From Armatimonadota bacterium (GTDB lineage Bacteria; Armatimonadota; Zipacnadia; Zipacnadales; UBA11051): a DNA stretch of 39,114 bases. Positions within the stretch are counted from its first letter, which is position 1. Each line of letters begins with the position of its first letter. Below the pieces are notes generated by a model that was given only the letters and a program-made list of their open reading frames with translations, had not been told where the DNA came from and made no database searches. The stretch spans positions 1 through 39,114 of the forward strand of contig JABLXH010000044.1 of NCBI GenBank assembly GCA_013178155.1. Reading direction: 5' to 3'. The position numbers were made by a program, and so were the translations under genes. Shown here piece after piece: positions 4,859 to 30,802 of this stretch.

Positions 4859-4890
4859 CGGCGTCTCGCGCAGCAGCGAGGCGCCGTTTC
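4859..4890 (+). terminator. Intrinsic terminator after tRNA-Leu, possibly bidirectional
   Basis: A 10-bp stem, CGGCGTCTCG (4859-4868) with CGAGGCGCCG (4877-4886), has one G-T wobble, an 8-nt loop and TTT on the plus side. On the minus strand it is followed by CTTTGGTCTTC and lies about 15 bp after the stop of the DUF6785-like gene, so it may end both convergent transcripts. Confidence 0.65.
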
Positions 4891-4900
4891 CGATTCCCGG

Positions 4901-6868
4901 CTACGGATACAGGAAGTGGTCCTGGACGCCCGTGAACGCCTCGACGACCAGCCAAAAAGCGATGTTGAAGAAGTCACCCAGGATGAGACCGAGAAAGAAC
5001 GGGCGACTGCGCTCGTAGACTGGCACTCCCCCGTAGCGCAGCACCAGGCTCTTGGCGGCCCAGGCCACGAGCACCGAGAACCACATGTTGCGCATGGCGA
5101 AGGTGGAGGCCATCGGATACCCCAGTGGGTGCAGCGGCCACCACAGGAAGCGGCCGCGCAGGAGCTGGAGGATGGCCATGAGGCCGGCACCGACGAGGGT
5201 AAAGGCGATGCGCAGGACCACTGGACCCGTGCGGTCGAGTAGCGACTGGCCGGTGTCGCGGAAAGCCAACTGACAGACGTTCACATAGCGCCAGACGGAG
5301 AGCCCGATGCCGCCGCCTGGCGTACCGTAAGCCAGGGCGATAATGGTGGCAAAGGAGACGACGATCGAGACGGTGGCTCCAGCCATCATGGCCGGCACGA
5401 GGCCTCGCGGACGCAGTTCGCCGCTCTCGGCCAGCTTGAGGGCGCTCATGGCGTTGGGCATGAGCAGGCAGCGCCAGTCTCGGGTCAGCGGCATCGCGTA
5501 GCCCATGATCGTCCAGTCGCGGGGCGACAGCGCGGGTACGCCGACAGCGCACCGCAGTAGTTCACGCGGGTCCAGCGGAGTCCCGATCCAGACAGTGCCA
5601 CCCTCGCAGACGAGTCGGCTCAGGCCGATAGCCATCAGCAACCAGAGGCTGTAGTAGCCCGCCGTTGCTATCACTGACATCCCCGCCACCTGCCACCAGG
5701 CGGCGAGGAGCGCAAGGCCCGCCAGTAGACCCCAGACGGCCACACGGGGGCGGAGGGCCTCGTTGCCGTCAGCCTCGGCACTCCCCAGGGCCTGGCGCAG
5801 TAACAGCGCGAGGTGCTTGCGGGCGACCCACAGACTGCCCACGGCGAGCATCAGGAGGGCGCCCGTGCTCTGCTCCTCCAGGAAGGGGAAGTCGCTCCAG
5901 GCGCCCGTGTTTGAGCCACCCGTGAGCCCCACCGCCGCGCCCGCAACGGCCTCCAGCTTGCCAACGAAGTACCAGGCCCACAGGCCGAAGGAGATGTCTC
6001 GCGAGAGCAGGTAGGAAAGGCCCACAGCCATGGGGTAGAACCAGAGCTGCAACGGCCGCGCGGCGCTCCAGGGGCGGGTGGTTAGCCCGCCGTCCAGGGC
6101 TACCTCACGGATCTTGAGTTCGGGCAGGGCGGGCCAGTAGAAGTGCAGGCTGTTGAAGGCGTGCAGGATCGTTGGCACAGCAAATCCTGCCCACATCAGC
6201 CGGTTGCGAAAGAAGGGGTGCAGGGCCGTGGGCAGGGCCCCCTGAGCCGGTTCCGTCATGGCCAGGGGCACGTAGTTCAGCGGAAAGATCAGCTTTTCGT
6301 GCTCGACCCATTGCCGGCGAAGCAGTACGCAGATGCAGATACTGAGCCAGGCGAGGATGACCCCAAGGATTGTCCAGTACAGGAGTGGCACCACCCATGG
6401 CCGCCAAGGCACCGACCAGGTCGGCGGCATGCCCTCGAAGAGGTAACGCACGACCAGCTCGTCGCGCGGCGCGAACCAGGGGGAGGTCGGGATGTAGGGC
6501 TCGAGCAGCCCTGACCACGGCTGGTCCGGCGTTCCGTAGTAGACCGGCGCGGCGATGAGGGGCGGTATGAAGTGGGTGAAGCCGATGCCCGCGACGCCAC
6601 CGCTGACCACCAGCATGCTATAAATGAGCAATAGCTCGCCGCGGCGGAGGGCCCAGGCGCGGCGAATGGCAGCGAACACCGTGTTCAGCAGCACGACGAC
6701 GACAACCCATACGAAGAAGCTGTTGATGGGCGGTGTGGACTGAGAAACCTGCGTACCGTGTACCCACAGCTCAGCGAACTGGGTGCCCACCGCCACGACC
6801 ACGGTGGCCATCAGACCAATGGCCACCGCGCGCGGGGTAAAGCTTGATTGTGAGCTTGCCGGGTTCAT
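4901..6868 (-). CDS. Polytopic membrane protein, DUF6785/DUF6784-like
   Basis: I read 655 residues from ATG 6868 (MNPASSQSS). The open frame continues another 108 codons upstream, but that part is low-complexity and lies across the promoter of the divergent gene, so it is rejected. The protein has many hydrophobic segments spread over its length, with roughly 12 or more candidate helices. The first follows FTPRAVAIGL, and a conserved-looking cytoplasmic segment WVEHEKLIFPLNYVPLAM lies between helices. A Gly-rich GGSNTGAWSDFP loop and a C-terminal LGLILGDFFNIAFWL helix follow. I recall this EKL-FPL-PL-M pattern from the uncharacterised DUF6785 family of planctomycete and armatimonadete genomes, whose shape is transporter-like. 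Function unknown; a permease for a solute is only a guess. No clear Shine-Dalgarno site precedes the ATG. Confidence 0.7.
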   Translation of the reverse strand: MNPASSQSSFTPRAVAIGLMATVVVAVGTQFAELWVHGTQVSQSTPPINSFFVWVVVVVLLNTVFAAIRRAWALRRGELLLIYSMLVVSGGVAGIGFTHFIPPLIAAPVYYGTPDQPWSGLLEPYIPTSPWFAPRDELVVRYLFEGMPPTWSVPWRPWVVPLLYWTILGVILAWLSICICVLLRRQWVEHEKLIFPLNYVPLAMTEPAQGALPTALHPFFRNRLMWAGFAVPTILHAFNSLHFYWPALPELKIREVALDGGLTTRPWSAARPLQLWFYPMAVGLSYLLSRDISFGLWAWYFVGKLEAVAGAAVGLTGGSNTGAWSDFPFLEEQSTGALLMLAVGSLWVARKHLALLLRQALGSAEADGNEALRPRVAVWGLLAGLALLAAWWQVAGMSVIATAGYYSLWLLMAIGLSRLVCEGGTVWIGTPLDPRELLRCAVGVPALSPRDWTIMGYAMPLTRDWRCLLMPNAMSALKLAESGELRPRGLVPAMMAGATVSIVVSFATIIALAYGTPGGGIGLSVWRYVNVCQLAFRDTGQSLLDRTGPVVLRIAFTLVGAGLMAILQLLRGRFLWWPLHPLGYPMASTFAMRNMWFSVLVAWAAKSLVLRYGGVPVYERSRPFFLGLILGDFFNIAFWLVVEAFTGVQDHFLYP

Positions 6869-6951
6869 GCGTTGGCGTTGCCGAGGGCCGTTGGTCTCGC
6901 CCGCACCTGTTCGCCGCCCAAGGCAGCCGACCTGCGGGGGCCACAGGGCTA

Positions 6952-6960
6952 TGCTATAAT
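6952..6960 (+). promoter_or_regulatory. Extended -10 promoter of the inositol-monophosphatase-family gene
   Basis: TGC followed by a perfect TATAAT (6955-6960) forms an extended -10 element. No good -35 box is visible at 16-18 bp, which fits an extended -10 promoter. The expected start near 6967 leaves a leader of about 40 nt with AAGGAG at 6996-7001. Confidence 0.65.
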
Positions 6961-7006
6961 GCCGTCGGCGTGGCGCCCGACCGCCACGAGGAGACAAGGA
7001 GACACC

Positions 7007-7783
7007 ATGACTGACCTGCAGCGTGCCACCGAGGTCGCTCTGGAGATCGCCCACGAGGCTGGCCAACTGGCCCTTGCCTGCTACGGCCGGGCGCAGGTGG
7101 AGGAGAAGCACGATGGCAGCCTGGTGACGCAGGCTGACCGCGGAGCGGAGGAGCTCATCCGCAGCCGCCTGGCCGCGGCCTTCCCTGACCATGCCGTCTT
7201 CGGCGAGGAGTTCGGTATCGGCGGGAACCAGGCCTCACCCTACGTCTGGTACATTGACCCAGTGGACGGGACCAGCAACTTCGTGCATGGCCTGCCGTTG
7301 TGGGGGGTGTCCGTGGGGCTCACTTACGCCGAGCGGTCTGTTGCCGGCGCCTTTGTGATGCCGGTGATGCAGGAGACGTACTGGGGCTGGGAGGGGGGAG
7401 GCGCCTGGCAGGACGGGCGGCGGGTGGCCGTTGCGGATCGAACGGAGATGCGAACCAACGACTTCGTCAGCATCGCCAGCACCATCCTGAACGGCTACCA
7501 GGTGGACTTGCCACAGAAACTGCGGTGCCTTGGCAGCGCCAGTCACGCCCTGGCGGCAGTTGCCGCCGGGCACTTCGTCGCTGCGATCCAGGACAACTGG
7601 AAGCCTTATGATTTCGCCGCAGTGCTGGTGATGTGCCAGGAGGCCGGCGTGGTGGTGACGTACGAAGACGGCAGGGCTTTCGAGAGCTTCGCTGGCCTCG
7701 ACAGGAGCACTCCCGGCCCCACGCTCGTGGCCGCCGGGCCAGGGATACACAGCCGGGTTCTGTCAGGACTCCGCCGACGATGA
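7007..7783 (+). CDS. Inositol monophosphatase family phosphatase
   Basis: A 258-residue cytoplasmic Mg2+-dependent phosphatase of the IMPase/FBPase fold. Motif A GEEFG (66-70, metal ligand Glu67), motif B IDPVDGTSNF (83-92, with Asp84 and Asp87) and motif C KPYDFAA (199-205, Asp202) are all present. Motif C normally reads W-D-AA, so Tyr replaces Trp before the metal-binding Asp. Members hydrolyse inositol-1-phosphate, histidinol phosphate, 3'-phosphoadenosine phosphate or fructose bisphosphate, and sequence alone does not choose between them. The start is ATG 7007 with AAGGAG 5 bp upstream; the in-frame extension back to 6872 crosses the promoter. It is transcribed divergently from the membrane-protein gene and converges on the thioredoxin-fold gene. 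Confidence 0.9.
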   Translation: MTDLQRATEVALEIAHEAGQLALACYGRAQVEEKHDGSLVTQADRGAEELIRSRLAAAFPDHAVFGEEFGIGGNQASPYVWYIDPVDGTSNFVHGLPLWGVSVGLTYAERSVAGAFVMPVMQETYWGWEGGGAWQDGRRVAVADRTEMRTNDFVSIASTILNGYQVDLPQKLRCLGSASHALAAVAAGHFVAAIQDNWKPYDFAAVLVMCQEAGVVVTYEDGRAFESFAGLDRSTPGPTLVAAGPGIHSRVLSGLRRR

Positions 7784-10009: not shown

Positions 10010-13000
10010 ATGGCGATGTCCCGATGGCTCCTGTCCCTGGGCCTTATCATCTCCACCGTCCCTGTGGTCCCCGCCTGGACCCAGGAGGCACCACGCCTTC
10101 AGGGCTGGACCTACCGTTTCCAGCAGCGGTACCTCTCCGATCAGTATGCCGACAAGACCGGCGTGATGTTGCGCGACGGCAAGACGGGCAGCGAGTGGGT
10201 CATCTTTCAGGGCGGACCTGTGACCATTGACCTCGACCTCGGGGGGCCCACTGAAATCCACGGGGTTACCGTTCACCTCAGTCGGCCCAATGACAACTAC
10301 AAGCTCCGGGACCTGACAGTGCTGGCCCGTGTGATGGGCCACTATCAGCCTGTCGGCGTTCTACCCGGTTTCTGGGGCCATACCGAGCAGCGGCAGTTCG
10401 CCCTGGTGCTTAAGGATGTCCAGGTGCACACGGATGCGCTGCGGCTGGTTTTCAACGCCCCTTCGGTCCTGGCGCTGTCGGAGATCGAGGTCTTCGGCCA
10501 GGCTCTCGCCCAGCAGACGGTGGACACCTACAGACTCCCCCTGCTCGCCGACGAGAAGCCCACGGCCCGAGAGGCAGACGCCGACGGTGATGGCAGACCG
10601 GAGGTTGTCCTGGAGAACTCGCTGCTGCGCCTGGTTTTCTGCCCCTTGGACGGCGGGGTCTGTCGCAGCTTCCTGTACAAGCCGGCGGGCGCGGAGTTCG
10701 TAGGACCACAGGCCGCGCAGTACGGCTTCCTGCGCGACCAGCTCTGGAGCCCGGCCTACCAGTTCGCAGACCGGCCATACACCTGGCGCACCGGTGGCGA
10801 CGATCGCGAAGCCTGGGTGGAGCTGTCAACAACCGGTCTCGGGGGTATGATGGGCTTCACGCATATCACGAAGCGCATCACCCTTGGGCGGGGCAGTCCC
10901 CAGGTACGGGTTGCCTATCGCCTCCAGAACGATCCGTCGTCACAGACCGACTACACCTACGGCTTCTGGTCTCACAACTTCCTGGGAGTGGTCGGTCAGA
11001 CGAACCGTTACTTCTACCCCACGTCGGCCGGCGTCGGCGAGTTCACCTTCGATCCCGCCAATCCGCCACGCAACGCCGACGCCTGGTTCAACGAGCCGGT
11101 CCGCGGCTGGGCGGCCTGCTGCGGGGCCAACGGGACAGGGCTGGCGGTCCAGCTCTCAGCGCCACACCTCTACTGCTTCTACAACTGGGGCGGGGTCGGG
11201 GTGCAGGTCCCAACTTTCGAGTGGCGGTACAGCCGGCTGCCACTGAAGAGCGGCGAGGCCTTTGAGACGCAGATGATCTTCACGCCCTTCCAGGGCCTGC
11301 AACGCGTGGACGGCGTTGTGGACGACGTGCTCGGAGCCATTGAACTCACGCCAGCGGAAGGTGACCCGGCCCAGGCAGTAGTGCGCCTGCAGGCGGCCCT
11401 GCCGAACAGCCGGCCCGTGACCGGTCAGGTGCGGCTTCGGAAGCTTGCGGCGGGTGATTGGGAGCCGCACGGTAGTGTCACTGCCCGCAGCGATGCGCCG
11501 GGAGAGTTGAGCGTGGCTCTGGAGGGCCTGGGACCCGGCGCCTATGTCCTGAACTGCCAGGTCGAGCGTGAGGGAAAGGCCTTAGACGACTTCGAGCGCC
11601 CCTTTACCATCGGCGGAGCGGCGCTGGCCTATAAGCGCGAGCCGCTGGAACCGCGAGTGGGCATGGGCCCGGAGGAAGAGCCGTCTCTGCCTCGCCACGA
11701 GCTGACGGACGAGATCGTAACGCCGCATGTGAAGTGGGCCACGCCGTTGCGCGGCGGACCGATCAGGGCGATCGTCCTCTGCGACGATCTTAACTCACGC
11801 GAGATTATCGAGTTGAAGCAACGGCTCGACCTGGACCTTACCTATGTGAAGTTTCGCACCCATCCATGGGAAGAGGAGATCTGGCAAGGGGATCGTTCGA
11901 TCTCCAATCCTGCCCAGGCTAACCAACGGTTGCTGGACTATCTCAACAGAAACCGCTATGAACTGCTGGTCATTGCCGGCTTTGACTGGCAGAACCACTT
12001 CACTGCCGAGGTCCGTGCCGCCATCACCGCGCAGGTCAAGGCGGGGGCGGGTCTGGTCTGCATCGAGCCCGACGGCTTCGCGGAAGGCGACGAGTTGGCC
12101 CCCATGATGGGCCTGAGCACCAAGCGTGACTACAACACTTACGGCCGCTGGCAGCGTACCGACGCCACGCTGAGCCTGACAGCGGGCCTCCCGTGGGAGC
12201 TTTTCCCCCAGACGCGCTACATGGGCTTCTCGCGCCCGCCCGAGGGGGAGGTTCTGGCCACCGTGGGAGAGACACCGCTGATTGTGACCAACCATTTCGG
12301 AGAGGGCCGGACGGTGGCCCTGACCTATGACGTGCTGACGCATGACTGGCCCTATCGGGGCTACTCGGCGTTGACGCCCATCCTGTCCTACCGCGGCGGC
12401 TGGCTGCGCCCGGAGTACGCGGAGATGACGTGGAACTACTGGGAGGGCTGGTATGCCCTGCTGTGCCGCATGGCTGTGTGGGCAGCCAGGCGTGACACGG
12501 GGGCTGAACTGGTGTCGCTGGAACCACTGGAGGCTCACGTCTTCGGGCAGCCCGGGAGCCTGCCGCTGCAGCTACGCGCGTCCGAGGGCAACTACCGGGT
12601 TACAGCCACCTTCGAGAACCGCTTCCGCCAGCCCGTGGGCGATGTGACACTGGACTGGACAGCGGGCGAAGTCCAGCCCGCCATCCCCCTGCCCAGCACA
12701 CTGGGCGCGGGCGTCAACCTCGCCAGCGTGGTGGTGCGCGACGCCGCCGGAAACAGTGTGGCGTGGGGCCAGACTTACGTCAAAGTCGCGGCCCCGGCGG
12801 CTATCAAGAGCCTCGCGCCGGAGAAGAGCATCGTGCTGGCTCAGGCGCTGGAACCGACCGGACAGCCCTACGAACGGGTCTTCCGACCTGGTGAGCCCCT
12901 GCGGGTGACCGCCACCCTGGACTTGCAGCAGCCTGCGGTCCCGGGGCTGCGCGCGCGGGCACGGCTCTCTGACACCTTCGGCCGCCTGCTGTGGGAGCAA

Positions 13001-15430
13001 AGTCAGCCGCTGGACGGCAGCACTAGCGAGGTCAGCTTCGCCGCTGAACCCTTGGAGCTGCGGGCCAACGGACTGGAATGGGAGCTCGCCGTGCTGTCGG
13101 ACGCGGGGCAGATGGATGTGGCGAAGACGCGCGTCCTTTGTCCTGCGCCCCGCGACTGGAATCACTTCCGCCTGATCAGTTGGAGCGGTATCTATCCCTG
13201 GCGTTCAGAGTATCTGTTTGACTATCTCGGTCCGCTGGTTGAGGAGCTGGTGGATGTTGCCTTCTACGGAGTAAGCGAGTTCAGCAACGGCCACGTGTGG
13301 CGCAACATGTGGCACGACATAGACTGGTCTTATCTCGGGCTGCTCAGCTATATGGGGCCGGGTGTCGCCGACTTCATGGATGCCGACTACGCCCGGAAGG
13401 TGGCCCAGTACAACCAGACCAAGGACAAGCAGTACCTGGTGCGAACCCCGTGCCTGGAAGACCGGGAGTGGCGGGCAAAGGTGGCAGAACACGCGCGAAA
13501 GGTGGCCCAGGAGGCGGCAGCTTACGGCGGGGTCCATGACTTCTGTATGGGCGATGAAATGAGTCTGACCCATTACACGGCCTACTTTGACTTCGACTGG
13601 GACCCGCGCAGCCTGGCTGCTTTTCGCGAATGGCTGAAGGGCCGATATGCCGACCTGAGTGCTCTGAACCAGGCCTGGGAGACGGACTTCGCAACCTGGG
13701 ACGAGGTGCTGCCGTTGACCCTGGAGGAAGCCAGACAGCGAGCCAATGCGGCGCCCTGGTGCGAGTTCCGTGATTTCATGAACGACAGCCTGGCGGGCAC
13801 GTACAGGATGATCAGCGAGGCACTGGAGAGCGTGGACCCGCAGGCCCGGGCCGGCCTGTCGGGCACTCAGGAGCCCCGGGCCGGTAACGGCATGGACTGG
13901 TGGAAGAACTCGCTGGCCTTCAACTTCTACCATTCCTACAATACAGGCTGGTCCAACGAGATGCGCCGCTCCTTCGCTCCGTATACCGGCGTGGCCCAGT
14001 CACCCTACTACGCCGGGTACTTCCAGCAGAGCCCGGCGGTTGACTATAACGTCCTTTGGTGCCTGCTGCACGACACCAACGCGCTCAGCGCCTGGATGAC
14101 CCCGATTTTCTTCTACGGTGACTTCTCCTACAGCGAATCGGGTCGTGACACCTTGAAGCTCTGTCGCGAGATGAAGGAGGGGCTCTGGGACGCCATTCGC
14201 AGCGCGAAGCGCTTGCATGACGGCATCGCTATCCACTACAGCCACGACAGCATCAACGCCGCTCAGCTCCTCGCCAAGGAAGAGGAGCAGAAGGACGTCC
14301 GGGACGCCTGGGTGAAGCTCATCGAGGACCTGGGCCTGCAGTACACATTCCTGGCGACCCCTCAGATCGAGGCCGGGCAGCTCACCAAGCCGGATGCCTG
14401 GGGTCTACGCTACAAGGTGCTGATCCTACCGGAGTCCATCGCGATCAGCGACGCCGAGAAAGCAGCCATCGAGGACTTCGTGCGTCAGGGCGGGACTGCC
14501 ATCGCGGACGCCTTCGCGGGCCTGATGGACGGTAAGTGTCGCCGGGGGCCGACAGGAGTCCTGGACGACCTGTTCGGCATCCGGCGCACCGACGCGGCCC
14601 CCGACACAACTGCAGACCTGCGCTGTGACTTGCCTGGCCTGGCTGACGCGGTTCTGAGGTTTCCGACCATGGAGAACCTCTCTCCCACCGGTGCGACGGT
14701 CGGTGCGGTGACGACTGGGGAGGCGCGAACCCCGGCCCTGCTGTCGCGCCGGGTCGGCCGGGGGCAGGCCTGGTACCTGAACATGGACCTGCGGCCCTAC
14801 GACAGCGAGCGCACCTTCCGCAGCCCGGTCGAGCAGGGCTTGCGGCGCGTCCTCCTGAGCATCCTGTCCAGCGGCGGGGTCAAGCCGGTCTTCCCCGTGG
14901 AGCTCGAATCCGGCCACGCTCCTCACCTGGAGACCGTCCGCTATGAGGCCGGTGACCTCATGTACCTGGGTCTTTTGCCCCAGGGCGGCGACCCGGAGGA
15001 GTTGGCGACCGTCAAGCTGGGACGGAAATGGCATGTCTACGACTGCCGACGGCATACCTACCTGGGCGAGCGAGACACGATTCGCGCCGCCTTCGGGCCG
15101 GGTGATGGGGCCGTGTACTGCCTGTCGCCCAGGCCCCTGGCAGTGCCGAAGCTGAACTGCCTGACGCCCTCGGTGCCGGTGGGCGGTGAAGTGAAGTATC
15201 AGGCCTTTGTGGGAGGAGGCTCTGACACCGCCCGCCAGTGCCTGCACCTGGAGGTGACCGATCCGACTGGCAAGCGCCATCGGGAGTACGCTCGCAACTT
15301 CATCTTTGGGGTGCGGGGGCAAAACGCCGGTTTCCGGCTCGCTCTCAACGACCCCAGAGGGGAGTGGCGTCTGCTCTTGCGTGACCTCGCCAGCGGGAAA
15401 ACTGCTGAGGCCGTGTTCACAGTTCGATGA
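10010..15430 (+). CDS. Giant secreted multidomain GH42-like glycosidase
   Basis: 1806 residues with a Sec signal peptide (SRWLLSLGLIISTVPVVPAWTQ). Domains read in order: a discoidin/F5-8C-like beta-sandwich (about 70-165, with VTIDLDLGGPTEIHGVTVHL); a long beta-rich module (183-560); a first GATase-like Rossmann domain (about 583-825, starting PIRAIVLCDDLNSREIIELK); further beta-sandwiches; a GH42-like TIM barrel (about 1049-1400) with candidate acid/base in FCMGDEMS near 1175 (GDE where GH42 usually has NE); a trimerisation GATase-like domain (about 1403-1560, VLILPESIAISDAEK); and a C-terminal beta-sandwich. Probable role: beta-galactosidase-like hydrolysis of an external polysaccharide. 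The nucleophile cannot be assigned by eye. ATG 10016 is an alternative start, 9 bp from AAGGGG. The next gene starts 11 bp downstream. Confidence 0.7.
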   Translation: MAMSRWLLSLGLIISTVPVVPAWTQEAPRLQGWTYRFQQRYLSDQYADKTGVMLRDGKTGSEWVIFQGGPVTIDLDLGGPTEIHGVTVHLSRPNDNYKLRDLTVLARVMGHYQPVGVLPGFWGHTEQRQFALVLKDVQVHTDALRLVFNAPSVLALSEIEVFGQALAQQTVDTYRLPLLADEKPTAREADADGDGRPEVVLENSLLRLVFCPLDGGVCRSFLYKPAGAEFVGPQAAQYGFLRDQLWSPAYQFADRPYTWRTGGDDREAWVELSTTGLGGMMGFTHITKRITLGRGSPQVRVAYRLQNDPSSQTDYTYGFWSHNFLGVVGQTNRYFYPTSAGVGEFTFDPANPPRNADAWFNEPVRGWAACCGANGTGLAVQLSAPHLYCFYNWGGVGVQVPTFEWRYSRLPLKSGEAFETQMIFTPFQGLQRVDGVVDDVLGAIELTPAEGDPAQAVVRLQAALPNSRPVTGQVRLRKLAAGDWEPHGSVTARSDAPGELSVALEGLGPGAYVLNCQVEREGKALDDFERPFTIGGAALAYKREPLEPRVGMGPEEEPSLPRHELTDEIVTPHVKWATPLRGGPIRAIVLCDDLNSREIIELKQRLDLDLTYVKFRTHPWEEEIWQGDRSISNPAQANQRLLDYLNRNRYELLVIAGFDWQNHFTAEVRAAITAQVKAGAGLVCIEPDGFAEGDELAPMMGLSTKRDYNTYGRWQRTDATLSLTAGLPWELFPQTRYMGFSRPPEGEVLATVGETPLIVTNHFGEGRTVALTYDVLTHDWPYRGYSALTPILSYRGGWLRPEYAEMTWNYWEGWYALLCRMAVWAARRDTGAELVSLEPLEAHVFGQPGSLPLQLRASEGNYRVTATFENRFRQPVGDVTLDWTAGEVQPAIPLPSTLGAGVNLASVVVRDAAGNSVAWGQTYVKVAAPAAIKSLAPEKSIVLAQALEPTGQPYERVFRPGEPLRVTATLDLQQPAVPGLRARARLSDTFGRLLWEQSQPLDGSTSEVSFAAEPLELRANGLEWELAVLSDAGQMDVAKTRVLCPAPRDWNHFRLISWSGIYPWRSEYLFDYLGPLVEELVDVAFYGVSEFSNGHVWRNMWHDIDWSYLGLLSYMGPGVADFMDADYARKVAQYNQTKDKQYLVRTPCLEDREWRAKVAEHARKVAQEAAAYGGVHDFCMGDEMSLTHYTAYFDFDWDPRSLAAFREWLKGRYADLSALNQAWETDFATWDEVLPLTLEEARQRANAAPWCEFRDFMNDSLAGTYRMISEALESVDPQARAGLSGTQEPRAGNGMDWWKNSLAFNFYHSYNTGWSNEMRRSFAPYTGVAQSPYYAGYFQQSPAVDYNVLWCLLHDTNALSAWMTPIFFYGDFSYSESGRDTLKLCREMKEGLWDAIRSAKRLHDGIAIHYSHDSINAAQLLAKEEEQKDVRDAWVKLIEDLGLQYTFLATPQIEAGQLTKPDAWGLRYKVLILPESIAISDAEKAAIEDFVRQGGTAIADAFAGLMDGKCRRGPTGVLDDLFGIRRTDAAPDTTADLRCDLPGLADAVLRFPTMENLSPTGATVGAVTTGEARTPALLSRRVGRGQAWYLNMDLRPYDSERTFRSPVEQGLRRVLLSILSSGGVKPVFPVELESGHAPHLETVRYEAGDLMYLGLLPQGGDPEELATVKLGRKWHVYDCRRHTYLGERDTIRAAFGPGDGAVYCLSPRPLAVPKLNCLTPSVPVGGEVKYQAFVGGGSDTARQCLHLEVTDPTGKRHREYARNFIFGVRGQNAGFRLALNDPRGEWRLLLRDLASGKTAEAVFTVR

Positions 15431-15441
15431 GGGAGTGACCC

Positions 15442-15867
15442 ATGGCAGCACCTGATTTCTACTTCGCCATCAACGCGACATTTCGCTGGATACACGCCAA
15501 CTGGGGCGAGGAAGGCCTCCGTGCCTACTGGGAGGCCATGGGCCGGGAGCACTATGCCGAGGTGACGGAGCGATTCCGCGCGGGTGGTTTGGACGCGGTG
15601 TACCACTACTGGCGTGACTTCTTTGCGACCGAGCCAGGCGGCGACGTCTGTGTCCAGCAGGGAGCGAAGGCCGTGACAATCGAGGTGCGGAAATGTCCGG
15701 CAATCAGGCATCTTCGGGAGCATGGCCGCGAGATCATGCCTCTGTACTGTGACCACTGTCGGGTGGTCAGCCAGGCCATGTGCGAGGGAGCGGGCATTGT
15801 GGTGGAGGTCGAAGGCGGCATGGGGTGCTGTCGGCAGACCTTTGCGCTCAAGGGGGACCAGCCATGA
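15442..15867 (+). CDS. Small cysteine-containing protein A, ATC-hydrolase-like (uncertain)
   Basis: 141 residues, no signal peptide or membrane segment. Features are aromatic W/YW positions in the N-terminal half (FRWIHANWGEEGLRAYW, YHYWRDFF), KCPAI with Cys85, YCDHC (Cys103 and Cys106), Cys114 and a GCC pair (129-130). The layout CP...YC-HC...C reminds me of the L-2-amino-thiazoline-4-carboxylate hydrolase-like family, in which most members have no known function. Cysteine spacing could bind a metal or act in redox, but neither is shown. It has GAGGGAGTG before ATG 15442, follows the giant glycosidase by 11 bp, and overlaps the next gene by 4 bp. That gene encodes a homologue with the same cysteine layout. 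Confidence 0.75.
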   Translation: MAAPDFYFAINATFRWIHANWGEEGLRAYWEAMGREHYAEVTERFRAGGLDAVYHYWRDFFATEPGGDVCVQQGAKAVTIEVRKCPAIRHLREHGREIMPLYCDHCRVVSQAMCEGAGIVVEVEGGMGCCRQTFALKGDQP

Positions 15868-16397
15868 TTGGATGTGCCGAGTTCATCTTGGCGTACGACT
15901 GGACCTTCGCCTACCTCCTGCGCGAGTATGGACCGGAGGCGGTGGAGCGTTACTGGACGGAGTGCATCTCCCGTGACTCGCAACTCCACGCTCGCGAGCT
16001 GATCATCGGCAAGGGTTTCGAGGGCATGGAGGAATACTGGGGGCATACGCTGGCGGAGGAGGAGGCGGGGTACACGTCGGTCCGCGCGGGCAACGTCTTC
16101 CGTATTGACATGTATGCCTGTCCATCGCAGGGTCTCCTTAAGCAACGCGGACAGCAGGACTACGCGGACTACTGCGAGCACTGCATGGGCTGGATCAAGC
16201 CCCTGATGGACGATGCTGGCTTCGTGATCCACCACGAACACGACCACGACTGCAAGTGCTGGTGGGAGATCGTGCCGGCCGAAGCGTCTCCGCCCCCGTC
16301 CGAACCGGGTGAACTGGCGGGCACAGATGACATACGGAAGCATCCGTGCTGGCGGCGAGAATGCGTTCATCGCTACGTGGGCAGCCGGCGCTGCTGA
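15864..16397 (+). CDS. Small cysteine-containing protein B, paralogue of A
   Basis: 177 residues from ATG 15864. Its start overlaps the previous stop as ATGA, implying translational coupling; AAGGGGG precedes it. It aligns end to end with protein A: F-YLLREYGPEAVERYW with FRWIHANWGEEGLRAYW, ACPSQ (Cys86) with KCPAI, YCEHC (Cys104, Cys107) with YCDHC, and CKCWWEI (Cys130, Cys132) with GCCRQTF. It adds a His-rich HHEHDHDCKC segment (123-132) and a Pro-rich tail with three more cysteines. The His/Cys clustering suggests metal binding, which is inference. Identity with A is low but the motif order is the same, so an old tandem duplication is likely. Function unknown. Confidence 0.75.
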   Translation: MIGCAEFILAYDWTFAYLLREYGPEAVERYWTECISRDSQLHARELIIGKGFEGMEEYWGHTLAEEEAGYTSVRAGNVFRIDMYACPSQGLLKQRGQQDYADYCEHCMGWIKPLMDDAGFVIHHEHDHDCKCWWEIVPAEASPPPSEPGELAGTDDIRKHPCWRRECVHRYVGSRRC

Positions 16398-16673: not shown

Positions 16674-19094
16674 ATGGACAGACCTGTCAACGGACGCCGG
16701 CGCTGTCGCGTGCTGGCGGCAATCTGTGTTCTCTGTGGCGCTGTGGGCAGCTTGGCTCTCGCAGCTCCTCCCATCACGCCTGCCGCTCTCAAGGACGCCA
16801 GCCCACTGCCCCAGGCCTGGGGTTCGGGCGTGAGGGCGAGCAGACCCGCCGTTGCTCGGCCGGCCAGGAAGGCCTCGCGCTTTGACCAACTCCTGCCCCT
16901 GCCCCCGCCGGACCGCCTGTCTCGGATGCCGGTGGCCCGCATCGAGGTCGGCGAGGGACGCGTGGACCCTGTCTGTACAGTAACGGGTTCTGGCAGTGCC
17001 TATCTCTATGTGGTCAAGGCCAGCGCCCCGGGAGTGGTCGAGTACCTGTACCCCGAACAGGGCGCCTTCCAGGCGGGTGAGGCACTGGTTCGGCTTTATG
17101 ACCTGGCCATCTTGCAGGACCTGCGCATTGGCGAGAGCGCGATGGCACGTTTCGCCAGCAGTCCCTTCGTGATCGCGCCGGCCGACAGCACACTGCCGCC
17201 CCTGCCGCCAGGCGTGGATTTCCCCCAACCGACGGCTGACCCCCGCGCCCTGGGCATCAGGCTCGCCGGGCCGCTACCGGCGCTGACGAAGATCCAGCCC
17301 ACTGCCGGACTGCAGCCCCAGCAGGAGAAGAAGCAGACAGGGCTCGCGCGGGCTCCGGGGCTGGCTTCGGCGCAGGCCTCCCGTCCGAGTCAGTTGCCAT
17401 CCCTGGCGCCGACAGACAACACTCCTCTGCCTGATGTCTCATCGCTCAGCAGCCAGTTGGCCGACGCTCACCAGCGTGCCTCCCAGCTTGGCGAGCTTAT
17501 TGCCCGGCTCGACGAGCGGCTGTCGGCAGCAAGGTCGCGGCTGGAGCAGTCGAGAGTGGATGAGGCTGCCAGCCAGCGCCTTTACGACCAGGGCATCCTG
17601 GCCCGCAAAGTCTATGAGGGCGCGAAGGCCAAGTCAGAAGCGGCTGAAAGTGATCTACGTGAGCTACAGGCCAAGCGTGCTGAGGCCGTGGAGGCCCGCG
17701 AGGCGGCTCTGGCCAGGACGAGGTCTACTCAGCAGCGCATAGACGCGGCGATGGCCGAGCGCAGCCGAAGAGCCAGCGAGGAGAACCGGCGCGACGACGC
17801 CCTGCGCCAACTGTCAGCGGCCGAGGCACCGCCGGCTATTAACGGCTCCAGCCGCCGAATGGGCCAGCCGGCGTCCCAGCGCCAGGCGTCGCCGAAAGCC
17901 GCCGTCTCGCGGTCGGAGACGTTCCCCTCACCCACCCGTGCCCGCCGCCCGGAGCTGTCCTCCGTGCCGCGCGTGCCGGCGTCCAGCCGTCTGCGCCCCT
18001 CAGTCGAGGTGCCCGGCGTACCCGAGGAGGTCAAGCGCCTGGCCGCGCCACGCTGGCGCGACGAGGCGGCGGTTTCGGATGGGGTTGTTGTCCGTCAACT
18101 GGTTCCGGAGGGGTCTCAGGTCAAAGCGGGCACGCCGGTGCTGGAGGTGGCGAACCGCGAATGGGCGCGGGTCTACGCCGATGTGCCCCGCGACGCTGTA
18201 GGCAACTTCCCCAAGGGCGCGCCGGTGCGGATGACCTTCGATGAGTACCCAGGGGTTGTTCTGGAAGGCTGGGTGAACGGCGTCAGCCCGGTGCCACACC
18301 GCGAGTTGGCTCAGGTGGAGATGGTCGTCTTGTGCCGCCAGGGCTATTACGCCAGCGACACTTACGCCTCGTTGCAGTGGATGACCCTGGCTGCACCTGT
18401 GGTGGAGCGAGATGTGCGCGAGCCGCTGCGGCCCGGCGTGCATGTCGAGCCAACGGCGGAGACCCCGCGGGGCGAGATCTACACTCTCTTCCCGCTCGTT
18501 CCGCCGCAGGTCGGTCCCGGGCAGGAGCCGGTGGTGGAGATCAAGGACCGCGAGTATGTGGGGGTCGTGCGACTGGGTGAGATGGACCTCATCAATGCAC
18601 GGAAGCTCAAGCAGCAGCCGGCTCAGGCCAAGCGCATTGCCGCTCTGAAGAAGTGGCGGGATTCGTTCATTGCCGGCATGACGACCACCTTGTTTGGTGA
18701 CCTCGCGCTGACCTACCCGCGAGAGGGCGAGATTGCGCGTGCGGTGGAGCGCATGGCCATCGGCGATGTCTCGCACGACTACAACCGCTGCGCCCGCACC
18801 ATGCGGGAGGCCCTCGGCTGGGGATTGGGAGACGCGGCCGTGTGGCTGAAGAAACTGCCCGAGCGCGGCTATCTGCCCCGCAAGGACGGCCTGGCCCGAC
18901 CTGGTGACATCCTCGTCTGGCCTTTCACCTACGGTCCGCGCCGGTCTCAGCATATCGGCATCGCCGTCAACCAGGGCGGGCGCCTGATGCTGCTGTCCAA
19001 CCTTGCGGGTACACTTGGCACCACTGAGCTTCTGGGTGGCTATGTGGCATTCTACCACCCGAGTTCATCCCCCGGCCAGACTGCCAAACGCTAG
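16674..19094 (+). CDS. HlyD-like adaptor fused to a C-terminal NlpC/P60-like peptidase domain
   Basis: I read 806 residues from ATG 16674; a 20-codon upstream extension begins only at a TTG. Residues 1-30 are an Arg-rich signal peptide or anchor (RRRCRVLAAICVLCGAVGSLALA). A first half-lipoyl/barrel-sandwich strand set lies near 102-145, then a Pro/Gln-rich linker. A coiled coil (about 256-381, LIARLDERLSAARSRLEQ) follows, then a second half-lipoyl (466-500, SDGVVVRQLVPEGSQVKAG) and beta-barrel (to 552), the order of HlyD/RND membrane-fusion proteins. The end carries RCARTMREALG with Cys706, ARPGDILVWPF and SQHIGIAV with His760, the layout of NlpC/P60 or CHAP cysteine peptidases acting on peptidoglycan. 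No transporter gene adjoins it. No Shine-Dalgarno site is visible, so the start is uncertain. Confidence 0.7.
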   Translation: MDRPVNGRRRCRVLAAICVLCGAVGSLALAAPPITPAALKDASPLPQAWGSGVRASRPAVARPARKASRFDQLLPLPPPDRLSRMPVARIEVGEGRVDPVCTVTGSGSAYLYVVKASAPGVVEYLYPEQGAFQAGEALVRLYDLAILQDLRIGESAMARFASSPFVIAPADSTLPPLPPGVDFPQPTADPRALGIRLAGPLPALTKIQPTAGLQPQQEKKQTGLARAPGLASAQASRPSQLPSLAPTDNTPLPDVSSLSSQLADAHQRASQLGELIARLDERLSAARSRLEQSRVDEAASQRLYDQGILARKVYEGAKAKSEAAESDLRELQAKRAEAVEAREAALARTRSTQQRIDAAMAERSRRASEENRRDDALRQLSAAEAPPAINGSSRRMGQPASQRQASPKAAVSRSETFPSPTRARRPELSSVPRVPASSRLRPSVEVPGVPEEVKRLAAPRWRDEAAVSDGVVVRQLVPEGSQVKAGTPVLEVANREWARVYADVPRDAVGNFPKGAPVRMTFDEYPGVVLEGWVNGVSPVPHRELAQVEMVVLCRQGYYASDTYASLQWMTLAAPVVERDVREPLRPGVHVEPTAETPRGEIYTLFPLVPPQVGPGQEPVVEIKDREYVGVVRLGEMDLINARKLKQQPAQAKRIAALKKWRDSFIAGMTTTLFGDLALTYPREGEIARAVERMAIGDVSHDYNRCARTMREALGWGLGDAAVWLKKLPERGYLPRKDGLARPGDILVWPFTYGPRRSQHIGIAVNQGGRLMLLSNLAGTLGTTELLGGYVAFYHPSSSPGQTAKR

Positions 19095-25114: not shown

Positions 25115-28100
25115 GTGTCCTCGACCCAAGACGTGCTCCGTATCCATCACGCACGCGAACATAACCTGCGAGACATTAACCTCGACCTGCCGAAGAACGC
25201 ACTGATTGTCTTCACTGGCGTCAGTGGCTCCGGAAAGTCGTCGCTGGCCTTCGATACCCTGTTTGCGGAGGGACAGCGGCGGTACGTCGAGTCGCTTTCC
25301 ACGTATGCCCGGCAATTCCTTCAGCAGCTCGGGCGTCCGGCGGTGGGTGCGATCGAGGGCCTGGCCCCGGCCATCGCCATCGACCAGGGCGCCCGTAGCC
25401 ACAATCCGCGTTCTACGGTTGCGACCGTTACCGGGATCTACGACCACCTGCGGGTCCTCTACGCGGCCATCGGCCATCGGCACTGCCCCCATTGCGGCCA
25501 GGAGGTCGGCAGCCAGACCCGCGAGACGATCATCGGGCGCATTGCGGGTCTGCCGGAAGGAACACCGGTGCAGATCCTGGCCCCTCTGGTGCGCGGCAGG
25601 AAGGGTGAGTTCCGTGACCTGATGGAGGATATGGCCAAGCGGGGCTACCTGCGGGCGCGGGTGGACGGCCAAGCGGTGCGACTGGACAATCCGCCGCGCC
25701 TGAGTCGCTACCGCCGCCATGACGTGTTCATCATCATGGACCGGCTGAGGATCAGACCAGGTATCCGTGGCCGGGTGGCGGAGGCGGTGGACGCGGCCCT
25801 GCGACTGGCCGAGGGCACAGTCGTTGTCGCTGTGCCGGGACAGCCTGACGTGCTTCTCTCGACCCGGTACGCGTGCGCCCGGTGTGACCTGAGTTTCGAT
25901 GAGCCGACGCACGCCAGTTTCTCCTTCAATAGCCCCAGGGGGATGTGCCCAGCCTGCCACGGTCTCGGGACCGAACGCGTCCTGGACCCGGAACTGCTGG
26001 TTCCCGACCCCAGCAAGTCGCTGCTGGACGGCGCTATTCCCGCGATGCAGTCGCTGCGGAGCGCCTTTCGGCGCCATTGGTTTCAGGGAGTGGCGGACCG
26101 CTACGGGTTCACCCTGGACACCCCCTGGCGTGACCTGACCGAGGAGCAGCGACGGGTCCTGCTGTACGGCACCGGGACGGAGAAGCTGGACTTTGTCTTT
26201 CGCAACCCAAACAACGGCTGGGAGTGGCGACATCGCCACACCTGGGGGGGCATCATCGCTGAACTGCAGTACCGTTACCAGCACCTGAAGGCCCCCACGC
26301 TGCTGCGGCGGATCGAGGAGGCGATGCGGGCGGGGCCGTGCCCGGCCTGTGGAGGCCGGCGCTTGCGTCCCGAGAGCCTCGCGGTCACCGTCGGCGGCAA
26401 GTCCATTGCCGATGTCGTGGCTATGGATGTCGCGGCGGCGGACCGGTTCTTTGCCGACCTGGAGCTCAGCGATACGGAGGCTGCCATCGCCGAGGATGCG
26501 CTCAAGGAGATCAGGGACCGGCTCTCGTTCCTTAACCACGTCGGCCTCCATTACCTGACGCTCGACCGCCTCGCACCCTCGCTGTCAGGGGGGGAGGCGC
26601 AGCGCATCCGCCTGGCCAGCCAGGTCGGCAGCGGCCTGGTGGATTGTCTGTACGTCCTGGATGAGCCCAGCATCGGTCTGCACCACCAGGACCAGGGGAA
26701 GCTGCTGGAGGCCCTGGCTCGCCTGCGAGACCAGGGCAATACGGTCATCGTGGTAGAGCATGACGAACAGACCATGCTCGCGGCCGATACCGTGGTGGAC
26801 TTCGGTCCCGGAGCGGGAGAGCATGGTGGTCGCATCGTCGCCGTGGGGACCCCCTGGCAGATCAGTCGTGCGCCCGGATCGCTCACGGGCCGGTACCTCA
26901 AGGGCGAGCTGAGCATCCCGATCCCGACGGAGCGCCGGAGGGGTAATGGCGCATGGCTGCGCCTCAGGGGGGCACGGCACCACAACCTGCGGAACGTGGA
27001 CGTGGATCTGCCGCTGGGCAGTATGATCTGCGTGACGGGCGTCTCAGGGTCCGGAAAGAGCTCGCTGATCACAGACACCCTCTACCCCATCCTGGCGCGC
27101 GAACTGCACGGCGCTGAGCTCACCCCCGGGGACTTTAGCGCCATTGATGGCCTGGAGCACCTGGACAAGGTCGTACTGATCGATCAGGACCCCATCGGGC
27201 GCACACCGCGCAGCAATCCCGCCACCTATACCGGCGTCTTCACTCCCATCCGCGACCTCTATGCCAGCCTGCCCGAGGCCCGCATGCGGGGCTACCGCCC
27301 GGGCCGGTTCTCCTTCAACGTAGCGGAGGGACGCTGCTCGGCCTGCGCGGGGCATGGAGCCGTGCGCCTGGAGTCTGACTTCCTGGCGGACATCTGGGTG
27401 CCGTGTGAGGCCTGCGAAGGCCGGCGCTTTGATCGCGAGACGCTGGAGGTCGTCTACCGGGGGCGGACGATCGCCGATGTCCTGGCGCTCTCCGTAGCCG
27501 AAGCTTTGGAGCATTTCGCCCCTATTCCACGCATACGGCGCCACCTGCAGACACTCGCCGATGTGGGTCTGGGCTACATCAGGCTGGGCCAGCCGGCTAC
27601 CACGCTGTCCGGGGGCGAGGCGCAGCGGGTCAAACTGGCCAAGGAGCTGGCGCGGCCGGCAACGGGCCGCACCATCTACATCCTGGACGAGCCTACTACA
27701 GGCCTGCACCTGCACGATGTCCAGCAGCTTCTGGAGGTGCTGCAGCGGTTTGTGCGCGAGGGCAACACCGTCATTGTTGTCGAGCACCATCCGGATGTCA
27801 TCAAGTGCGCGGACTATGTGGTGGACCTGGGGCCGGGAGGGGGCCATGAGGGGGGGCTGATCGTGGCCCAGGGGTCTCCTGAGGCTCTGGCTCAGCAGGG
27901 CCAGTCGGCCACGGCTGTGATGTTGCGCGAGGTGCTGGGCAGGAGCCGACGCCATCTGGGACGTCGTAGCCGGCCGCGTCCACGGCGTCGCCAGGACCAC
28001 ATCGTGGTCAAGGGGGCCCGCGAGCACAACCTCGCCGATGTAGAAGCGCGTATACCGCTGCATCAGCTAACCGTGGTGTCGGGCGTGAGCGGCTCTGGCA

Positions 28101-30802
28101 AGACCTCCTTCGCGCTGGACACGCTCTATGCCGAAGGGCAGAGACGCTTCGTGGAGTCCCTGTCGCCGTACGCGCGGCAGTTCGTCAGCCAGATGCCCAA
28201 GCCGAAGGTGGACCGTGTCACAGGCCTGCCGCCGGCCATCGCCATTGACCAGACAGGACGGTCCTACTCACCGCGCTCCACGGTGGGCACCTCCACGGAA
28301 GTCTATGACTATCTGCGCCTGCTGTTCGCTCGCCTGGCACAGCCACACTGCCCGCAATGCGGCGCGGCTGTGGGAACACAGACCCGGGACCAGGTGGTGG
28401 ACGCCATCCTGGCTACCGCAACGGGTGAGATGGTACTCGTCCTGGCGCCACTGGCGCCCCGGGGCAACGAGGCCTATGAGACGATGCTGCAGCGCGTCCA
28501 ACGTGACGGCTGGCAGCGTGTGCGTGTGGACGGACAGATGCATACGTTGCCGTACGATGGTGTCCTGGACCGGCGCAGCCGCCACCTGATCGAGGTCGTG
28601 GTTGACCGCCTGCGGCCCGAGACCCGGAACCGGTCGAGGCTGGCACAGGCCGTAGAGGCCGCGTTCCGGCTCTCGGGTGGACAGGTGACCCTCGCGGGCA
28701 CCAGCGAGCTTCGTTTCTCAAGCCAGCACGCGTGCGCCGACTGCGGCGCTGCCTTTGAGCCGCTGACGCCAAAGAGCTTCTCGTTCAATCATCCTGATGG
28801 CTGGTGCCCACGCTGTTACGGCCTGGGGACGATACGGGGAGTGGAGCTCGCCGACCTGGTGACGGACGCGACCAGGTCTCTGCGCGAGGGGGCCTTGCGC
28901 CCCTGGCCGAACCTGCGCCGCCTGCCCCGCCTGTCGGCCATGCTCGAACAGGCGGCCCGACATGCGGAGTTCAGTCTTGATAGCCCCCTGGACCGCTTGG
29001 ACGAGTCCCAGCGCAGCTATCTACTGCGGCTCCTGGCCGGGAACCGGGCGGCGGCACCAGAGGATGGCGCCTGGGTCCAGGAGCGACTGGCCGGCGCACC
29101 ATATCGAGCGGAACTGGCGCAGCATGGGGCGCAGAGCATCGAGCGGTACCTGCGGGACGTGCCTTGCCCAGCCTGCCGCGGTGCCAGGGTGCGACCCGAG
29201 GCAGCCATGGCCCGGTTGCGGGGACGAACCATTGGCGAAGTGTGCAGCATGTCGCTGGTAGACTGCCACCAATGGTTTGCAGAGCTGGAGCTTGACCGAC
29301 GAGAGCAGGCGCGGGCGCAGGATGTGGTCACCGAGATCCGTTCCCGTCTGCGCTTCCTGGTGGAGGTGGGACTGGGCTATCTGACCCTCGGACGCTCATC
29401 GCCGACGCTGTCCGGCGGAGAGGCGCAACGAGTGAAGCTGGCCGGTCAGATGGGATCGGGATTGACAGGCTTATTGTATGTTTTGGATGAGCCCACGGTG
29501 GGGGTCCATCCCCGGGACAATGCCAGGGTCCTGCAGGCCCTGCGCCGGCTGCGCGACGACGGGAACACGGTGGTGGTCGTGGAGCACGACCCACAGACAC
29601 TGGCGCAGGCCGATCACATCGTGGACCTCGGCCCGGGTGCCGGTCCGGATGGCGGTCGTATCGTCGCCAGCGGCCCCCGCGGCCGAGTGGCACGCAACAC
29701 TGCGTCTGCTACCGGTCAGCTCCTCTCTGGCAGACTGACGGTGCCGGTGCCGCGGGAGCGCCGACCGGTACCAGCGCCGCCGGAGCAGAGCCCCGGTCAG
29801 TGGCTGGTGGTGGAGGGGGCCCGGGAGCATAACCTGAAGGGCATCACGGTGGCCTTTCCGCTCAACAGGCTGGTTGTCGTTACCGGGCCGTCGGGCTCGG
29901 GGAAAAGCACTCTGGTTGACGACATCCTGAGCCGCGAGCTGGCGATCCGGCTGAATGGGGCCCGCACAGACCGTGCCCCCGGACGCCATGCAGGCATACG
30001 GGGTATAGGCAACCTTGACCAGTTGATCGTTATTGACCAGACTCCGATCGGCCAGACCCCTCGCTCCAACCCCGGCACCTACGTCGGTGTCTTTGACCTG
30101 GTGCGCGAGTTCTACGCCGCTTTGCCTGAGGCGAGAGTGCGGGGTTTCAAGGCACGGCGCTTCAGCTTCAATGTCTCCGGCGGGCGCTGCGAGACGTGCC
30201 AGGGCATGGGCAGCCGCTGCGTGCAGATGCATTTCCTCCCTGACGTGTGGGTGACATGCGAGGAGTGCAACGGTCACCGGTATAACCCGGAGACCCTGCA
30301 GGTCACCTATCGCGGACACACGATCTCCGATGTCCTGGCCATGCCCATTGCCAGAGTACGCGAATTGTTTGCCGCCTTCCCTCGGGTCGCCCGGCGGCTG
30401 CAGGTCCTCTGCGACGTTGGCCTGGGTTATGTTACCCTGGGACAGGCGGCGCCCACCCTCAGCGGCGGTGAAGCTCAGCGGGTGAAACTGGCCCGTGAGC
30501 TGTCGTCACCCGCCCGAGCGCGAACGCTCTATGTGCTTGATGAGCCCACGACCGGCCTGCACACCGCCGATGTGCGGCAACTGCTTGCGGTGCTCAATCG
30601 CCTGGTGGACCGTGGGTATAGCGTGGTCGTCATCGAGCACAATCTCGATGTGATCAAGTCGGCGGACTATGTGATTGACCTAGGGCCAGAGGGCGGTGAC
30701 CGGGGGGGCTATCTCGTTGCCGCCGGGAGTCCTGAAGAGGTGGCGAAGGCTGAAAACTCGCCCACCGCCCCTTATCTCGCGCGCGCTCTGCAAGGAGGCT
30801 AG
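25115..30802 (+). CDS. uvrA: Double-length excinuclease ABC subunit A (tandem UvrA fusion)
   Basis: 1895 residues, about twice the usual 940. UvrA is the DNA-damage sensor of nucleotide excision repair, loading UvrB onto lesions. Residues 1 to about 955 and 960-1895 each form a UvrA-like unit beginning with AREHNL. Four Walker A motifs are intact: GVSGSGKS near 35 and 642, GVSGSGKT near 990, GPSGSGKS near 1591. Each is matched by an LSGGEAQR signature and a Walker B LDEP segment. Zinc-module cysteine pairs occur in both halves (CPHCG near 124, CSACAGHG, CADCGAAF, CETCQGMG). The joint near 935-960 is an Arg-rich linker (GRSRRHLGRRSRPRPRRRQD). Double UvrAs are known, for example in Chlamydia. 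Start GTG 25115, AGGAG 7 bp upstream; SOS-regulated promoter. Confidence 0.97.
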   Translation: MSSTQDVLRIHHAREHNLRDINLDLPKNALIVFTGVSGSGKSSLAFDTLFAEGQRRYVESLSTYARQFLQQLGRPAVGAIEGLAPAIAIDQGARSHNPRSTVATVTGIYDHLRVLYAAIGHRHCPHCGQEVGSQTRETIIGRIAGLPEGTPVQILAPLVRGRKGEFRDLMEDMAKRGYLRARVDGQAVRLDNPPRLSRYRRHDVFIIMDRLRIRPGIRGRVAEAVDAALRLAEGTVVVAVPGQPDVLLSTRYACARCDLSFDEPTHASFSFNSPRGMCPACHGLGTERVLDPELLVPDPSKSLLDGAIPAMQSLRSAFRRHWFQGVADRYGFTLDTPWRDLTEEQRRVLLYGTGTEKLDFVFRNPNNGWEWRHRHTWGGIIAELQYRYQHLKAPTLLRRIEEAMRAGPCPACGGRRLRPESLAVTVGGKSIADVVAMDVAAADRFFADLELSDTEAAIAEDALKEIRDRLSFLNHVGLHYLTLDRLAPSLSGGEAQRIRLASQVGSGLVDCLYVLDEPSIGLHHQDQGKLLEALARLRDQGNTVIVVEHDEQTMLAADTVVDFGPGAGEHGGRIVAVGTPWQISRAPGSLTGRYLKGELSIPIPTERRRGNGAWLRLRGARHHNLRNVDVDLPLGSMICVTGVSGSGKSSLITDTLYPILARELHGAELTPGDFSAIDGLEHLDKVVLIDQDPIGRTPRSNPATYTGVFTPIRDLYASLPEARMRGYRPGRFSFNVAEGRCSACAGHGAVRLESDFLADIWVPCEACEGRRFDRETLEVVYRGRTIADVLALSVAEALEHFAPIPRIRRHLQTLADVGLGYIRLGQPATTLSGGEAQRVKLAKELARPATGRTIYILDEPTTGLHLHDVQQLLEVLQRFVREGNTVIVVEHHPDVIKCADYVVDLGPGGGHEGGLIVAQGSPEALAQQGQSATAVMLREVLGRSRRHLGRRSRPRPRRRQDHIVVKGAREHNLADVEARIPLHQLTVVSGVSGSGKTSFALDTLYAEGQRRFVESLSPYARQFVSQMPKPKVDRVTGLPPAIAIDQTGRSYSPRSTVGTSTEVYDYLRLLFARLAQPHCPQCGAAVGTQTRDQVVDAILATATGEMVLVLAPLAPRGNEAYETMLQRVQRDGWQRVRVDGQMHTLPYDGVLDRRSRHLIEVVVDRLRPETRNRSRLAQAVEAAFRLSGGQVTLAGTSELRFSSQHACADCGAAFEPLTPKSFSFNHPDGWCPRCYGLGTIRGVELADLVTDATRSLREGALRPWPNLRRLPRLSAMLEQAARHAEFSLDSPLDRLDESQRSYLLRLLAGNRAAAPEDGAWVQERLAGAPYRAELAQHGAQSIERYLRDVPCPACRGARVRPEAAMARLRGRTIGEVCSMSLVDCHQWFAELELDRREQARAQDVVTEIRSRLRFLVEVGLGYLTLGRSSPTLSGGEAQRVKLAGQMGSGLTGLLYVLDEPTVGVHPRDNARVLQALRRLRDDGNTVVVVEHDPQTLAQADHIVDLGPGAGPDGGRIVASGPRGRVARNTASATGQLLSGRLTVPVPRERRPVPAPPEQSPGQWLVVEGAREHNLKGITVAFPLNRLVVVTGPSGSGKSTLVDDILSRELAIRLNGARTDRAPGRHAGIRGIGNLDQLIVIDQTPIGQTPRSNPGTYVGVFDLVREFYAALPEARVRGFKARRFSFNVSGGRCETCQGMGSRCVQMHFLPDVWVTCEECNGHRYNPETLQVTYRGHTISDVLAMPIARVRELFAAFPRVARRLQVLCDVGLGYVTLGQAAPTLSGGEAQRVKLARELSSPARARTLYVLDEPTTGLHTADVRQLLAVLNRLVDRGYSVVVIEHNLDVIKSADYVIDLGPEGGDRGGYLVAAGSPEEVAKAENSPTAPYLARALQGG

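Follow-up and report, generated by a model that had tools for sequence, protein, structure and literature searches.

In adaptor proteins such as EmrA, MacA and HlyD, two lipoyl halves flank a coiled-coil hairpin and are followed by a beta-barrel and a membrane-proximal region, and in known adaptors this membrane-proximal domain sits at the inner-membrane end. The protein described here follows the same order of parts. It differs from these adaptors in having a signal peptide where they retain a membrane anchor, flexible linkers of considerable length at the hairpin, a tip from which the R and S of the RLS motif are lost, and an extra C-terminal enzyme, with no transporter gene alongside. In the case of MexA, the RLS motif consists of R96, L100 and S107, of which L100 is critical, for docking to OprM (PMC6447562).

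A second group of related systems approaches the protein from its enzymatic side. PcsB of Streptococcus and RipC of Mycobacterium are single secreted chains in which a coiled coil precedes a CHAP domain (PcsB) or an NlpC/P60 domain (RipC); the coiled coil restrains the enzyme and an ABC protein, FtsEX, frees it (PMC11627006). Both are without the lipoyl and barrel domains that are present in the fusion. Regarding the enzyme itself, LysK, LysGH15 and a S. saprophyticus CHAP domain share with it a papain-like fold in which a helix begins with the Cys, and strands carry the His and another polar residue. These are endolysins or autolysins equipped with wall-binding domains, whereas the fusion carries an adaptor in their place. 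Both halves are of known kinds, and their combination on one chain appears to be new. An adaptor and a wall hydrolase on one chain were not found together in the open-licence literature searched, and a precedent in databases is possible. Such a natural fusion physically ties both activities and offers one protein in which their link can be tested.

The fusion gene lies on the forward strand of the window, by which we mean the whole stretch of 39,114 nucleotides that was analysed. Translation gives an uninterrupted frame from the ATG at 16674 to the stop ending at 19094, and the gene is present in a single copy in the genome of the window. Its parts are as follows.

16674–19094, + strand: whole gene for the 806-residue adaptor-CHAP fusion; open frame without internal stops, one copy per genome
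16674–16763, + strand: signal peptide, about residues 1–30, with a run of small residues (ALAA) at its end; from hydrophobicity
16995–17099, + strand: first half-lipoyl motif, residues 108–142; model strands 111–115, 120–124 and 137–142; 46% mean pairwise identity
17100–17435, + strand: long low-confidence linker from half-lipoyl motif to hairpin, residues 143–254; mostly pLDDT <50 from residue 171
17436–17825, + strand: coiled-coil hairpin, residues 255–384; two helices, pLDDT mostly 90–98
within 17436–17825, + strand: hairpin tip, residues 303–310; L303 and G307 invariant (alignment columns counted)
17829–18014, + strand: second low-confidence linker, residues 386–447; pLDDT <50 at 389–447
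18039–18158, + strand: second half-lipoyl motif, residues 456–495; HlyD_3 and HlyD_D23 matches begin at 466; 46% mean pairwise identity
18159–18341, + strand: adaptor beta-barrel, residues 496–556; HlyD_3 match runs to 552; model strands
18342–18617, + strand: putative membrane-proximal-like region, residues 557–648; strands 586–591 and 621–635; from adaptor topology
18660–19064, + strand: CHAP-like peptidase domain, about residues 663–797; PF05257 profile, fold matches with Z 7–9
18789–18791, + strand: catalytic Cys706 (TGC), invariant in 24/24; opens helix 706–714
18951–18953, + strand: catalytic His760 (CAT), invariant in 24/24
18999–19001, + strand: Asn776, probable third catalytic residue, invariant in 24/24; always His+16

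The initial annotation had described an exported chain with half-lipoyl motifs around a coiled coil, and this description was borne out by Pfam profiles, an AlphaFold2 model, Foldseek and the signal peptide. Hydrophobicity peaks at residue 13 (KD19 of 2.45) and exceeds 1.0 nowhere beyond residue 90. The same ending is seen in homologues whose N-terminus is complete, usually with a motif resembling A-x-A, and inspection by eye of the N-terminus of the fusion showed no lipobox. From the sequence, the signal peptide appears cleavable and not a retained anchor.

In the case of the adaptor half, the window protein matches HlyD_3 (PF13437; E 5.9e-11, 43.5 bits, curated cut-off 22.2) and HlyD_D23 (PF16576; E 3.6e-8, 33.4 bits, curated cut-off 30), and both profiles are matched by all 24 aligned members. 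A profile of the alignment retrieved EmrA and MexJ from the PDB (best 5.8e-13). In the AlphaFold2 model, which was built on 23 sequences, the hairpin helices span residues 255–305 and 311–384 at a pLDDT of about 95, and the first half-lipoyl motif and the barrel are also present. The best Foldseek matches were EmrA (E 1e-9), MacA, HlyD, ZneB and AcrA, and the profile and fold match to adaptors covers approximately residues 108–568. Full-chain TM-scores are low, as the domains are poorly placed relative to one another in the prediction (pTM 0.49). A VIA-align comparison of the full model was discarded, as it was swamped by unrelated long helices. Altogether, the model depicts the adaptor half as a complete module, with half-lipoyl motifs flanking an alpha-helical hairpin followed by a beta-barrel. 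The membrane-proximal-like region is probably completed in the model by a strand from the N-terminal part (residues 82–92, 16917–16949).

Two features of the hairpin depart from this picture. Flexible linkers of roughly 60–110 and 30–95 residues separate it from the lipoyl halves (the first varies from about 62 to 113 residues among homologues with a complete N-terminal half), and therefore the usual rigid tube may not form. At the tip, the Leu of the RLS counterpart is invariant, the Ser is replaced by Ala in 20 of 24 sequences, and an R at position L-4 occurs in none of the 24 homologues, which instead have a basic residue at L-3. For comparison, one pump adaptor of the window genome has a full RLS motif and another has Ala for Ser.

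The C-terminal part had been read as an NlpC/P60-like peptidase. The papain-like fold of this reading stood, but the family proved to be nearer to CHAP. Modelled alone, the domain reached a pLDDT of 85.6, and its neighbours among solved structures were NlpC/P60 and CHAP peptidases (Z 7–9, about 3 angstrom). Structure prediction recovered both the adaptor parts and the papain-like fold. The CHAP profile (PF05257) is matched in 20 of 24 full-length sequences and in 23/23 domain copies scanned alone, with a best E of 1.4e-6, against 2/23 copies for NlpC/P60 (PF00877; best E 0.0054). The copy of the window itself falls under the gathering cut-off of 26 (E 0.0013, 19.7 bits) while other members score higher, and a Pfam scan of the whole window protein gave no match over the C-terminal part. 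NCBIfam and PHROGs gave weak matches only. Foldseek E-values are modest (best 0.015), and therefore the CHAP call rests on the agreement of profile, fold and residues. Searching PDB sequences with a profile of the domain matched nothing relevant, so it is the fold comparison that carries the structural assignment. Thus, profile searches led from the adaptor half to HlyD_3/HlyD_D23, EmrA and MexJ and from the C-terminal part to CHAP, and the peptidase is better named CHAP than NlpC/P60, the fold being common to both.

The Cys706 and His760 named beforehand were found at exactly these positions, and no homologue lacks either of them. To this pair a third invariant polar residue, N776, can be added. 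The spacing between Cys706 and His760 (54 residues) and between His760 and Asn776 (16 residues) is fixed in all 24 homologues. Judged from the sequences, the enzyme half is apparently an intact wall-cutting enzyme.

Conservation is uneven along the chain. Mean pairwise identity is 66% in the CHAP domain, 46% in each of the half-lipoyl motifs, 37% for the barrel and only 26% along the hairpin, which makes the enzyme half the most strictly conserved part of the fusion at the sequence level. Across the CHAP domain, dN/dS was 0.02–0.17 in four related pairs. Since 24 aligned homologues preserve both the arrangement of the parts and the residues of the active site, the fusion is not a product of chance. 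An assembly artefact or a dead enzyme accordingly deserves next to no credence: all that speaks for it is that the data are metagenomic and that some copies are truncated or split where contigs end, against 26 separate genomes with the same fusion, invariant catalytic residues and low dN/dS.

The distribution was determined by searching the 41 genomes of the order (Zipacnadales) with the protein and, for the phylum, 251 genomes with a profile built from the C-terminal domain. The same fusion was found in 26/41 genomes of the order with one copy each, some of the counted copies being split or cut by contig ends, and in 0/210 sampled genomes of other Armatimonadota. Within the order, the fusion is missing in one family from three genomes and in another from two genera, and also from two other genomes, one of them just 59% complete. 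A scan of 84,980 species detected the family nowhere else, as far as two short peptide patterns reach, and a single-sequence search of genome contigs returned no relatives. The alignment search yielded 23 loci, whose named hosts are Armatimonadota, Candidatus Zipacnadia and candidate division WS1. Zipacnadia is an uncultured class of Armatimonadota. Its described genomes are likely Gram-negative, with LPS genes reported (PMC10290634), and TolC-type proteins occur in 41/41 genomes of the order; on these two grounds the hosts look diderm. Stand-alone, secreted-looking CHAP-domain proteins accompany the fusion in two genomes (L027:3764-4402 in G019 and L028:3150-3587 in G015). These proteins (L027/L053 and L028/L052) have 50–52% identity to the window domain and the same catalytic residues, but unlike the fusion they are frames of 216 and 212 residues without an adaptor part.

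In the window, a tandem pair of small proteins is encoded on one side of the fusion gene and a class II aldolase on the other. The two small proteins just upstream (15442–15867 and 15780–16397) are related to each other; the product of the former matches ATC_hydrolase (PF14196) below the threshold and that of the latter has no match. No ABC or RND transporter gene had been noted next to the fusion, and this held both for the window and for the other loci read. Over the 16 loci compared, each 39 kb long at most, the fusion is the sole family common to all, its neighbours are not conserved and differ between families, and no FtsEX gene was seen near it in the loci read. Six loci have in common an oxidoreductase family of the Gfo/Idh type, which looks unrelated.

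The window genome has one complete RND operon and one complete MacB operon, each with its own adaptor, and its remaining pump genes are located where contigs end. Next to FtsEX, an EnvC-like protein combining a coiled coil with an M23 domain is encoded in 5/5 genomes checked. Since the intact RND and MacB systems own their adaptors and FtsEX has an EnvC-like partner, the fusion stands as an orphan adaptor-hydrolase. OEP, MacB_PCD and ACR_tran are found in nearly all genomes of the order and FtsX_ECD occurs in 36/41, so that the co-occurrence of TolC, MacB, RND and FtsX families is uninformative on the partner. FlgI was found in 17/26 genomes with the fusion and in 3/15 without it (Fisher p 0.009, kinship ignored). 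A flagellar role was rejected, as nine genomes carry the fusion without FlgI, which is therefore not required.

Taken together, we favor, at a probability of about 40%, a secreted periplasmic CHAP-type peptidoglycan hydrolase carried on a complete adaptor module and possibly opening the wall for a conduit. In such a mechanism, the signal peptide would be cleaved and leave the fusion soluble in the periplasm, where the adaptor half would assemble as a ring, as other adaptors do. The hairpin would contact a partner provided in trans, either an outer-membrane factor of the TolC type or some other envelope component. Since the chain ends beyond the membrane-proximal-like region, the CHAP domains would sit close to the inner-membrane end of the ring and would cut peptidoglycan locally so that the conduit is built or kept open. 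We count in favor of this explanation the profile and fold matches of both halves, the invariant catalytic residues and strong constraint of the enzyme, the stand-alone CHAP copies, the diderm look of the hosts and, at the hairpin tip, the conserved counterpart of the docking Leu of MexA; against it we count the shifted RLS tip, the flexible linkers, the changing neighbours and the lack of a nearby partner gene in the loci read. The cutting could serve either the opening of a conduit, in keeping with the anchoring at a trans-envelope conduit that the initial annotation suggested, or general remodelling. A dedicated wall-opening adaptor in the strict sense, i.e. a hydrolase-bearing ring in which one protein both assembles a TolC-type conduit and cuts the wall, strikes us as possible but less likely than not. 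The fusion also supplies an equivalent, in a diderm setting, of the FtsEX-driven coiled-coil hydrolases.

Much of the same evidence could be read in another way, namely as pointing to a periplasmic wall hydrolase whose adaptor fold is only an oligomerising or regulating scaffold, acting with neither a transporter nor an outer-membrane factor, for instance in general wall growth or turnover. This is a distinct possibility: an orphan gene with no conserved partner, a shifted tip on flexible linkers, an enzyme far more conserved than the hairpin, and intact RND and MacB operons that own their adaptors are all in keeping with it. A mere scaffold, however, does not sit well with the conservation of the partner-contacting lipoyl halves (46% and 46%) and barrel (37%), nor with that of L303 and G307 at the tip. 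The regulation of PcsB and RipC is a serious analogue, in which the hairpin would hold the enzyme inactive until a mechanotransmitting ABC partner of the FtsX or MacB kind moved it; here, no genetic link supports it. The coiled coil plus CHAP combination of PcsB (PMC11627006) and the presence of MacB and FtsX families across the order speak for such gating, yet it is unlikely given that FtsEX sits beside its own EnvC-like partner in the five genomes examined, that in the window genome the intact MacB operon already includes an adaptor and that PcsB and RipC possess no lipoyl or barrel domains. Improbable as well is a peptidase borne on an adaptor that processes exported cargo in place of peptidoglycan. 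The C39 domains of peptidase-containing ABC transporters do couple papain-like peptidases to exporters (PMC8277102), but the best fold matches of the C-terminal domain are mainly wall hydrolases, its Pfam match is CHAP and no cargo gene lies nearby.

Several further loci were observed in the course of this analysis. Two tandem EnvC-like coiled-coil plus M23 proteins are encoded at L088 (G013, 4944–7406) and at L087 (G010, 4874–7320), and those at L088 directly follow FtsX. The window also encodes a tandem double UvrA of 1895 residues (25115–30802), with two UvrA interaction and two UvrA DNA-binding domains, and a protein of 1806 residues (10010–15430) with ThuA-like and GH42 beta-galactosidase-like regions. 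Finally, six adjacent frames of one family are found at L063:14694-19000 (G031), at least five of them with a prepilin-like start GFTLIELLVVIAIIAILAAILFPVFARARE.
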